Made by a program: the position numbers and the translations under genes. From Candidatus Nanopelagicaceae bacterium (lineage in GTDB: Bacteria; Actinomycetota; Actinomycetes; Nanopelagicales; Nanopelagicaceae), in assembly GCA_009691185.1 (NCBI GenBank), contig SHVD01000004.1:1-38314 (forward strand): DNA of 38,314 nucleotides. The letters are read 5' to 3'. Shown here one piece after another: positions 8,195-14,898 of this stretch. A model generated the notes under the pieces. It had not been told where the DNA came from. It was given only the letters and a program-made list of their open reading frames with translations, and searched no databases. How positions within the stretch are numbered: the stretch's first letter is position 1; each line of letters begins with the position of its first letter.

Positions 8195-8271
<77 letters not shown>

Positions 8272-12628: not shown

Positions 12629-13945
12629 ATGAGTTTTGGTTTTTTACCAAATGAGGGGCAACCTGATTTTGATGCGCTGCTTAAAAAATTCTCAGAGATG
12701 GGAATTGACTCCGGTGTATTAGCTGGTGCTAAATCCTTTATCGAGGGTATGGGAGCTAATAAATCTGGTGAACAAAACTTAATTACCATTGCTAATTTAA
12801 GAGAGATTTCTAGAAAAATTATCACCGCTAAAGGAGATCTTCCAGTTGGTACTACTGACCAACAACAACTCTCCGAAGCATTAACTATTGCCAACACCTG
12901 GTTGGATACAGAAATTTTGTTCCCAGCAGCAACTGTGCCCAATCAAAGTGCCTGGGCAAAGCGCGAATGGCTGGATGAATCAGTCAATGGTTGGCAGCAA
13001 CTATTTGAACCATTAGCACTTGGTATGGCCGATGCTCTTGGTAAGGTAATTACAAGCTCTAATACAGCGCTGCCAGTTGAATTCATGGAATCGGGTGAAC
13101 AAAACCCACAACAGCAGGAAGTGATGAAGACGATGCTGGCTCGAATTTTGCGTGGATTCATGGGCACCTTAATTGCCACTCAACTTGGACAGGGCATTGG
13201 CACACTTGCCAACACCATCACTGGTGCTAATGATGTGGCGATTCCACTACTAAAAGCTGACTCTGGATCCCACCTGATTCCACAAAACATCACCGAATGG
13301 GCAGATGGTTTAGGGATAGATCAGGAACAAATCAGAATTTACTTATCCTTGCGTGAAGCTGCTGCGGCTCGGTTATTTGCTAATACCCCATGGCTTGAAA
13401 ACTATATTAAAGATTTAATAATTGCTTACGGTGAAGGAATCACTATCGATGTCGACTCGATTACCAGACAAGCTGAAGAGGCGATGGCTAGCGGTGAAAT
13501 AGATATTAATAATCCACAATCAATTAATATCGCATTAAGTGCCGGACTATTTACGCCGCAACAAACTCCCGCCCAAGAGTTGGCGTTAACAAGACTGGAA
13601 ATGGCGCTTGCATTAATTGAAGGCTGGATTGATCATGTTATATCTGCAGTTGCTAGTGAGAAAATCCCGGCCTTTAATGCTTTGATTGAAAACTCTCGTC
13701 GCCGTAGAGCGACAAATTCACCCATGCAACAAATATTTGCAAATCTACTAGGGGTTGAAGTTTCACCAAGAAAAATGCGAGAGGCATCAGCTTTTTGGAG
13801 TGAGGTTAAAAAGCTACGGGGAGCGGATGGTCGTGATAAGTGTTGGCAGGATCCAGCATTTTTGCCGATGCCTAATGATCTCACCGATGTAAAAGCCTTC
13901 CTAGATAGCATTACGGTTCCAGATGATCTATCCGGCCTGATCTAG
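12629..13945 (+). CDS. DUF2342 family protein (annotated elsewhere as zinc-dependent metalloprotease / F420-associated)
   Basis: A 438-residue actinobacterial DUF2342 protein (Rv3195-like). Recognisable landmarks are MSFGF at the start, LREAAAARLFANTPWL near residue 250, ALIEGWIDHVISA near 335, and the C-terminal RRRRATNSPMQQIFANLLGVEVSPRK region, cited here in part. Many homologues, as I recall them, have a His in the REAA-H-ARLF segment; here it is Ala, and no HExxH motif occurs anywhere, so the protease label is doubtful for this copy. ATG 12629 fits the family's usual N-terminus; GTG 12614 is possible. TATAGT at 12576-12581 may be its -10. Gene order with the PDZ protease and UPF0182 matches mycobacteria. 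Confidence 0.85.
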   Translation: MSFGFLPNEGQPDFDALLKKFSEMGIDSGVLAGAKSFIEGMGANKSGEQNLITIANLREISRKIITAKGDLPVGTTDQQQLSEALTIANTWLDTEILFPAATVPNQSAWAKREWLDESVNGWQQLFEPLALGMADALGKVITSSNTALPVEFMESGEQNPQQQEVMKTMLARILRGFMGTLIATQLGQGIGTLANTITGANDVAIPLLKADSGSHLIPQNITEWADGLGIDQEQIRIYLSLREAAAARLFANTPWLENYIKDLIIAYGEGITIDVDSITRQAEEAMASGEIDINNPQSINIALSAGLFTPQQTPAQELALTRLEMALALIEGWIDHVISAVASEKIPAFNALIENSRRRRATNSPMQQIFANLLGVEVSPRKMREASAFWSEVKKLRGADGRDKCWQDPAFLPMPNDLTDVKAFLDSITVPDDLSGLI

Positions 13946-14265
13946 TCCGACAAAAGTAAAAGCGAAATCCCCGGGCGCACAATTTCTTATCTGCCTTCCC
14001 CTTGCAGATATGAAACGGTTATCCGGGGACTTCGTAGTGTAAAGATAAGGGAATAAAAGTTGAGAATCAACTGATAAGGGTGTTTTAAAAAGTAATTTTG
14101 AAAATATTTTTTAGCAATCTAGCTGTCTCTGTGATAAAAAATAAATTAGATAATCCCCTTCGGTATGGCCTGCAACAAATAAGTAACTAGGTTGCGTAAA
14201 ATTTAACCTTACTCTGTGGATTAACCTGTGGAGATAAGAGCAATTATGGTGGATAAGAAGAGGTA
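13946..14265. other. 320-bp noncoding gap between DUF2342 and YgjP-type genes
   Basis: No convincing gene was found here. The first 90 bases hold a two-stem structured element (13961-14036). The middle (14040-14160) is AT-rich without a clear promoter pair. The last 50 bases carry repeated TGTGGAT/GGTGGAT motifs that run into the next gene. The gap is unusually long for this compact window, which itself suggests function. Confidence 0.6.
13961..14036. ncRNA. Candidate structured RNA element (unassigned)
   Basis: The outer helix is GCGAA + TCCCCGG (13962-13974) against CCGGGGA + TTCGT (14023-14035): 12 pairs with one A/C mismatch. The inner hairpin is TATCTGC (13988-13994) / GCAGATA (14004-14010) with loop CTTCCCCTT. 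The helices are separated by an asymmetric internal loop. There is no T-run after the outer stem on the plus strand, so it is not a simple terminator. It matches no riboswitch I know, and the strand is unproven. Confidence 0.4.
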
Positions 14266-14276
14266 ATGGTGGATAA
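14215..14276 (+). repeat. Cluster of DnaA-box-like motifs / 20-bp tandem repeat
   Basis: TGTGGATTA (14215-14223), TGTGGAGATAAG (14227-14238), GGTGGATAA (14248-14256) and GGTGGATAA (14268-14276) are near matches to the DnaA box TGTGGATAA. The last two belong to exact 11-bp copies of ATGGTGGATAA, 20 bp apart. The first of these opens a six-codon mini-ORF whose TAA overlaps the ATG of the next gene. Confidence 0.45.
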
Positions 14277-14898
14277 CTTTGAGCAAGAAATTCTTTTTCC
14301 TGATATTTCACCGCAGGTTGCTCAAATCGCTAAGCGTAGGAAAAGTGATGAGGCTAGATTGCCCAAGGATCTGCCTACATATCGGGTGATTCGCAAGGAG
14401 CGTAGGCGGCGCAGCATCAGCGCCTATCGTCAGGGCGGGGTGATTGAGATTCATATCCCAGCTCGGATGAGCAGGCGGCAAGAGATCGAGATAATTCCAG
14501 AGATGATTGCTATGGTGCTAAGGCGAGAGGCACGCGAGCGCAAAACCGACCTACAACTGATGCAGATCGGTATGGAGCAACTTGCTACCTATCTACCCGA
14601 GTTTGATACTTATCCAGCCAGCATTAATTGGCGCAACATGAATGAACGGTGGGGCTCTTGCACCACAGTTGATCGCACAATTCGCATCTCAGATCGATTA
14701 ATTGGTGCACCTAATTATGTTTTAAATTATATTATTTTTCATGAGTTAATTCATTTGAAGGTCATCAGTCATGATCAGGAATTCAAAAATTATTTGAGCA
14801 GATTCACCGATAAAGATAAAGCGGAAGCATTTTTGGAAGGGTTTGAGCTTGGCTGCCAAGGTGGTGGTTTAACTCTCTCGCCGGCAATAAATAACTAG
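14266..14898 (+). CDS. YgjP/SprT-like zinc metallopeptidase (M48-type, DUF45)
   Basis: A 210-residue protein of the YgjP-like family, often annotated as M48 metallopeptidase. The zinc site HELIHLKVISHDQEF near residues 164-178 supplies HExxH plus a downstream His, and the family signature NERWGSCTT precedes it at about 125. The N-terminal third is basic (RKERRRRS). It is soluble with no signal peptide; substrate unknown. AGAGG lies just before ATG 14266. A six-codon mini-ORF (14246-14266, MVDKKR) ends in TAATG at the start, suggesting re-initiation. In actinobacteria this gene commonly sits near DUF2342 and uvrD2. Confidence 0.85.
   Translation: MVDNFEQEILFPDISPQVAQIAKRRKSDEARLPKDLPTYRVIRKERRRRSISAYRQGGVIEIHIPARMSRRQEIEIIPEMIAMVLRREARERKTDLQLMQIGMEQLATYLPEFDTYPASINWRNMNERWGSCTTVDRTIRISDRLIGAPNYVLNYIIFHELIHLKVISHDQEFKNYLSRFTDKDKAEAFLEGFELGCQGGGLTLSPAINN

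Follow-up and report, generated by a model that had tools for sequence, protein, structure and literature searches.

The gap between the genes for DUF2342 and YgjP in a Nanopelagicaceae genome contains a strong hairpin, and we wanted to investigate what this hairpin is. The window, i.e. the whole stretch of DNA that was analysed (38,314 nucleotides), comes from an assembly of 1.08 Mb in 71 contigs, which is approximately 81% complete. The gap has 320 bp (13946-14265) and is bordered by the DUF2342 stop at 13945 and the ygjP start at 14266. The gene content includes DUF2342/Zincin_2, PDZ-Lon, YgjP and WhiB. A sequence-only reading had placed an RNA-like element of two stems here, with one mismatch in its outer helix, and had offered three options for it: a riboswitch-like leader, a small RNA or a processing site.

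We confirmed the two stems at this place: an outer helix of 12 pairs and an apical stem of 7 bp (13988-13994 paired with 14004-14010). The plus strand of 13961-14036 folded with -33.9 kcal/mol (z -5.4) and the minus strand with -37.2 kcal/mol (z -6.3); in each case 0/200 shuffles were as good, and the fold of the minus strand was the better one. The reported mismatch exists on the plus strand, where it is read as A-C; on the minus strand the same position is a G-U pair. It was also correct that no T-run follows on the plus strand, and on the minus strand CGCTTTTACTTTTG is located directly 3' of the helix. In the alignments described below, G-U cells exceeded A-C cells (52 vs 4 in the host family, 133 vs 54 in the class), as expected with the minus strand as the RNA. 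The parts of the RNA are listed here.

13958-14035, minus strand: small RNA of approximately 78 nt (modelled core, ends approximate), based on covariation, conservation and the fold (z -6.3)
14023-14034, minus strand: 5' arm of the outer helix (12 pairs), from the fold and the family alignment
13963-13974, minus strand: 3' arm of the outer helix (12 pairs), from the fold and the family alignment
14017-14022, minus strand: conserved internal loop, 5' side (AUAACC of GGAUAACC), retained in the family alignment and partly lost in the class
13975-13980, minus strand: conserved internal loop, 3' side (GUGCGC, with two bases that possibly pair across the loop), from the fold and the family alignment
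13995-14003, minus strand: apical loop AAGGGGAAG, 9 nt, nearly invariant
13952-13961, minus strand: T-rich tract 3' of the helix, terminator-like (at least 5 T in 6 nt)

Such a T-rich end was present in 16/22 family loci and in 3/40 class loci. The hairpin is nearly palindromic, and covariance models also matched its reverse strand with up to 42.7 bits (L093, L100, L187 and others); automated annotation could therefore place the RNA on the wrong strand.

Directly upstream of the helix we observed a promoter of the sigma-70 type on the minus strand (14042-14070). The RNA would start at approximately 14035, with the helix formed from its first bases.

14065-14070, minus strand: -35 element TTGATT, at the same position in 22/22 family and 39/40 class loci
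14042-14047, minus strand: -10 element TATCTT, 17 nt from the -35 element, ending 6 nt ahead of the modelled RNA

We looked for the pattern TTG(A/C/T)NN, 17 or 18 nt, TANNNT in loci that had been chosen by the RNA and not by the promoter. It was found in 61/62 loci (22/22 family, 39/40 class), at the mirror side in 0/62, and in other 50-nt windows in 29/3078 and 9/4316 cases. The promoter ended 6-9 nt ahead of the modelled RNA, or 15 nt in L127. A generic promoter scan detected nothing at the locus, because TTGATT and TATCTT match 8 of the 12 consensus bases and the threshold of the scan is 9.

Further, we analyzed covariation, a check that the earlier reading had proposed, and it was strong in both the family and the class alignment. 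In the family, aligned with plain MAFFT, 98.4% of the cells pair and 10 of the 23 pairs show changes on both sides (shuffled mean 3.8; slid partners 1-4). Among 100 matches from the class, 20/23 pairs have changes on both sides, in 481 cells vs 144 after shuffling; this alignment was fitted to the structure and includes one reverse-strand ghost (L015). One step beneath the pairs that close the loop (alignment A4, columns 45 and 68), 20/100 sequences, many of them of Nocardioides type, have C-A, either as an intermediate or as a wobble that is conserved. The own family and some of the class retain the internal loop GGAUAAC/GUGCG, and the other sequences have lost it.

The apical loop AAGGGGAAG was identical in 36/36 family cores. 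It was found in 59/62 family and class loci; two more carry ACGGGGAAG, and L129 differs. The loop stays constant while the loop-closing pairs change in L252 and L253 (outside the class) and in L289. Loci from named genomes were picked with the loop in the search pattern; they are therefore uninformative on loop constancy. Covariation together with an invariant loop shows that selection acts on the RNA product itself. The core varies in length by single bases (73-80 nt), so that a reading frame is unlikely to be kept and a small protein is an improbable product.

Two signs of an independent small-RNA gene, an own promoter directly upstream and a covarying conserved structure, are both present at this locus. 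They speak, with the wide conservation described below, for the small-RNA option; we found no support for the processing site. From the comparisons it is nearly certain that the hairpin is the RNA product of a free-standing minus-strand gene shared by many actinobacteria.

We wanted to see how widely this RNA occurs; the counts are lower bounds, and related species do not count as independent cases. With 13955-14080 as query, a DNA search detected the element in 229/251 family genomes (106/108 of the good ones, 16/17 genera), with two matches in two genomes and one in the others among the matches listed. A search with the whole gap matched mainly the hairpin in other genera (77-89% identity) and yielded nothing in 23 genomes of other families. 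A covariance model, R1, built from 36 distinct family cores found at least 133/394 genomes of the class and 55/137 genera, with 41 of the matches in the own family and 92 outside (best outside E 1.7e-17); R1 overlooks diverged homologues, and absence from other families is tentative. Among 20 DUF2342 loci from genomes without an R1 match, L289 is a clear homologue (48 bits with the model R2), which makes the class count of 133/394 too low, and L279 is a possible diverged one (14 bits, E 0.43). In a pattern scan of named genomes, 75/80 among the loci listed were matched by R1 with an E of 0.01 or lower. The carriers among the matches listed were mostly Nocardioides and other Nocardioidaceae, with further records from Frankiales, Nanopelagicales, Pseudonocardiales and Geodermatophilaceae.

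A phylum-wide search with R2, which scores 12 candidates per genome at first look and has low recall, matched at least 10/396 genomes (E 2.9e-8 to 9e-4): the host, one more of the same class and 8 outside it. The weakest of these matches may be due to chance. In 15 genomes of f4, f19 and other families, the pattern TTGAC..A(A/C)GGGGAAG gave 16 listed matches in 8 genomes, approximately as many as the reversed control, and none of the 16 folds into this kind of hairpin. Phage-borne copies were considered and rejected: 8 viral contigs match the loop pattern, the best R2 score was 22 bits over 23/78 positions, and none was plausible. Metagenome-assembled genome records titled Bifidobacterium breve (L137), Rubrivirga (L150) and Spirochaetaceae (L197) carry the RNA with 66, 55.7 and 43.4 bits, respectively; the score of L137 exactly equals that of the acAMD-2 record L205. 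These three are probably misbinned actinobacterial contigs.

In the family the RNA has the same two neighbours, DUF2342 and YgjP; between groups, the neighbours and their strands vary. Compared to the own family (L049-L068), the block of ygjP, boxes and RNA is inverted with respect to DUF2342 in most class loci with both genes (L092-L131). The RNA is usually single-copy and is kept in streamlined genomes of 1.2 Mb and in genomes of 4 Mb alike. Abundant covariation, a near-invariant loop and retention across genome sizes suggest that it does something important.

Upstream of the RNA, words resembling TGTGGATA first came to notice in the window, L094, L098 and L279. They are similar to DnaA boxes: a table in PMC4285127 gives TTGTCCACA and TTATCCACA as high-affinity DnaA boxes, for M. 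tuberculosis and S. coelicolor as well as for E. coli and others. In the window we identified four such sites.

14215-14223, minus strand: DnaA-box-like site TAATCCACA, one mismatch to TTATCCACA, at the same place in 16/16 parsed loci of the genus
14228-14236, minus strand: weaker DnaA-box-like site ATCTCCACA, two mismatches, read from the sequence
14248-14256, minus strand: DnaA-box-like site TTATCCACC, one mismatch, from the box count and the genus loci
14268-14276, minus strand: DnaA-box-like site TTATCCACC, one mismatch, overlapping the first ygjP codons, from the box count and the genus loci

The 38-kb window has 15 boxes within one mismatch; three of them lie at 14215-14276, and none of these three is perfect. 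In the genus, boxes at approximately -240, -220 and -187 were found in 16/16 parsed loci (21 given, 5 unparsed). The overlap of the site at about -240 with the first ygjP codons may explain its retention. At 14245-14277 (ATGGTGGATAAGAAGAGGTAATGGTGGATAAC), the ygjP start (14266) follows a near-copy of itself that has a separate ATG (14245) and a stop; the two box-like words 20 bp apart are thus also near-repeated start regions.

A first count gave more boxes per kb near the RNA than far from it (1.4 vs 0.2 in the family, 1.7 vs 0.1 in the class). We then counted TTATCCACA with at most one mismatch between -300 and -40 from the RNA start. Such a box was present in 13/22 family loci (22 boxes), 29/40 class loci (52 boxes) and 62/73 named loci (130 boxes). 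On the downstream side the same definition gave 0/22, 3/39 and 1/70 loci, respectively, and 0-1 locus in each of the far flanks. Compared with 1680 permutations of its letters, the box ranked first in all three sets; the named set had not previously been inspected for boxes and therefore counts as replication, though its members are related.

With a strict box, (T/C)(T/C)(A/C/G)TCCACA, 111/115 class and named loci had at least one box, 67/115 had at least three and 4/115 had none. The strict boxes are phased at 10.7 bp (score 0.78 vs at most 0.21 in 500 random placements) and share the orientation of the RNA (115 vs 2 and 268 vs 3); when boxes are defined more loosely, this bias shrinks to 173:16 and 348:55. 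The commonest gap between the array and the -35 element was 15-19 bp (56/110 loci), which suits contact with RNA polymerase. The link is weaker in the host family, where 9/22 loci have no box with at most one mismatch between -300 and -40 and the distance from the boxes to the promoter is greater than in loci of Nocardioides type. L289 has the RNA and no strict box.

The boxes track the RNA gene rather than ygjP. They persist where ygjP is unseen or more than 1.2 kb off (L100, L107, L119, L120, L127, L114, L125, L126) and where it is on the other strand (L113, L122, L124). In the 20 DUF2342 loci from genomes without an R1 match, there was no cluster of three strict boxes. The comparisons made here establish the RNA gene with its strand, structure, promoter and conservation, as well as the array of box-like words.

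We also searched five genomes of one class genus (3.8-4.5 Mb) for tandem NTCCACA at 12 bp. There were 17 pairs, of which 7 lie at the RNA (4/5 genomes), 5 beside dnaA (5/5 genomes) and 5 elsewhere; two of the five dnaA-side pairs are at the far contig end, so their assignment assumes a circular chromosome. G525 had no tandem pair at its RNA. The reversed pattern gave 8 chance matches, and single tandem pairs are therefore weak evidence. We rejected the RNA locus as oriC, since in none of the 14 genomes compared does it lie closer than 160 kb to dnaA; the distance is 0.12-0.19 of the genome in 7 genomes of the family and 0.25-0.34 in 7 others.

The reading that we favour, by a small degree over its negation, is that of a trans-acting small RNA controlled by DnaA. 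RNA polymerase with the housekeeping sigma factor would initiate at the foot of the helix, at approximately 14035 of the minus strand. The product would be one stable, imperfect hairpin of approximately 78 nt that exposes the fixed 9-nt purine loop AAGGGGAAG. DnaA would bind the phased upstream boxes head-to-tail on one face of the DNA; these boxes end near the -35 element in most class loci and, in the genus of the window, are located approximately 180-240 bp before the RNA start. The level of free DnaA would set the transcription of the RNA, by activation or repression, and so would tie it to the replication cycle. We infer the binding of DnaA to the array and its control of transcription from sequence comparison, and more weakly we infer that the RNA acts in trans through its loop.

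For this action, the docking of a protein would be more probable than extended base pairing. We rejected a Shine-Dalgarno mimic: the loop pairs with the 16S tail at -6.9 kcal/mol, and 85% of 126 permutations of the loop pair as well or better. In 4 complete relatives we counted 3-6 copies per genome of the whole-loop antisense CTTCCCCTT, with the RNA locus among them (reversed pattern 2-7), and comparison of positions by eye gave no site shared within each genus other than the RNA. Across 14 dnaA loci there was no conservation near dnaA of CTTCCCC, the complement of the loop core. Unremarkable anti-Shine-Dalgarno pairing and the apparent lack of a long conserved complement leave a protein partner or short seeds, and shorter antisense seeds of the loop may still contribute.

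An unlikely but serious competitor is that the locus is first of all a reservoir of DnaA or a DnaA-modifying site, like datA, DARS or the clusters of Streptomyces and B. subtilis, with the RNA gene as a neighbour. Transcription of the RNA may then reset the DnaA complex, and the RNA need neither be regulated by DnaA nor act on it. A phased array of boxes in one orientation away from dnaA would fit this, as would the DnaA-box clusters outside oriC already known (passages of PMC4585315) and the effect of transcription from a tRNA promoter into datA on the protein complex there (passages of PMC10950094). However, the boxes follow the RNA gene, their preferred distance to the -35 element is as expected of a regulator, and the covariation and invariant loop show selection on the RNA product. 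We consider it improbable that the RNA is a conserved trans-acting one unrelated to DnaA, with the words bound by another protein or kept otherwise. The box identity comes from sequence alone, and L289 and the 9/22 own-family loci with few or no boxes at the RNA would agree with it, whereas the first rank among the permutations in three groups and the same tandem words in the dnaA region of all five genomes argue for DnaA.

It is hardly credible that there is no independent RNA and that the hairpin terminates DUF2342, belongs to a leader or riboswitch, or is a structure of the DNA. The hairpin does lie 12 bp past the DUF2342 stop, it is strong on both strands, and the minus strand is T-rich in the family. 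Against this, nearly all loci have the promoter 6-9 nt before the helix, G-U pairs are in excess on one strand, the loop is kept base by base, and neighbours and their strands vary between groups. The leader or riboswitch of the earlier reading was rejected as a cis-acting element: the RNA begins at the foot of the helix on the minus strand and runs into the 3' end of DUF2342, and no gene follows on its strand in the window. Its statement that no known riboswitch signature matches was borne out by the Rfam search. The strand, the distribution across the class and the DnaA-box-like sites are additions to that reading.

With Rfam 15, the only match of the window at gathering score was a tRNA gene at 8198-8271 on the minus strand (RF00005, 60.8 bits). 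In the gap, at E up to 10, there were three sub-threshold matches, none on the hairpin. Seven family loci at E up to 1 gave one sub-threshold match, away from the hairpin, and 20 class loci gave none. The RNA is thus new in the sense that no Rfam 15 model matches it, despite strong covariation and a near-invariant loop. In the titles and abstracts listed we found no description of this RNA, nor of a conserved small RNA tied to a DnaA-box cluster outside oriC; it may nonetheless have been described in print. Among pipeline papers, the main texts of PMC8632094 and PMC11109978 contain no word beginning with "actino", and PMC6429828 mentions Actinobacteria once, for another motif.

In summary, these results suggest a DnaA-controlled small RNA. 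As the RNA gene is usually just downstream of the row of boxes, the RNA may couple gene regulation to replication and its cycle. Somewhat short of an even chance, in our view, is the fuller proposal that DnaA, on a phased array of origin-like order, switches a hairpin RNA, and that the near-invariant purine loop of this RNA engages a conserved partner. In this proposal the RNA would be old enough to be present in much of the class Actinomycetia and in other classes of the phylum. If this proposal is true, actinobacteria have an RNA arm of DnaA-based control of the cell cycle. If DnaA controls the RNA, the replication initiator of actinobacteria has a conserved output in the form of an RNA.

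Several known RNAs resemble this one in part. The small SRP RNA (RF00169) is likewise a single-copy hairpin of similar length; it was considered, being absent from the host assembly, and rejected, as it is found at another place in 12/12 near-complete relatives. The lack of an RF00169 match in the host assembly is probably due to assembly incompleteness. The 6C RNA of actinobacteria has two C-rich loops. It is also small and actinobacterial, with conserved hairpin-loop bases, whereas our RNA has one G-rich loop and no Rfam match to 6C. Ms1 is another small, structured RNA widespread in actinobacteria; it is described, in passages of PMC9130861, as approximately 230 nt long in S. coelicolor with a HAD-hydrolase neighbour. 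We rejected this identity, as an RNA of approximately 78 nt between DUF2342 and YgjP has neither the length of more than 200 nt nor that neighbour.

A response to DnaA, which for our RNA is predicted from sequence, is reported for ArrA of B. subtilis, whose production is inhibited by DnaA (PMC12112137). ArrA is antisense to the dnaA leader, whereas our RNA lies far from dnaA. DnaA-box clusters outside oriC include, according to passages of PMC4585315 and PMC10950094, datA, DARS1 and DARS2 of E. coli and clusters near oriC of S. coelicolor and B. subtilis. Our locus is similar in having several putative boxes in one intergenic stretch away from dnaA, less clearly so in the host family. It differs from these clusters in that the putative boxes are phased, point one way and adjoin the promoter of a conserved small RNA, and in its distance from dnaA (0.12-0.34 of the genome in the 14 genomes compared). 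The array supplies candidate DnaA sites outside oriC across the class.
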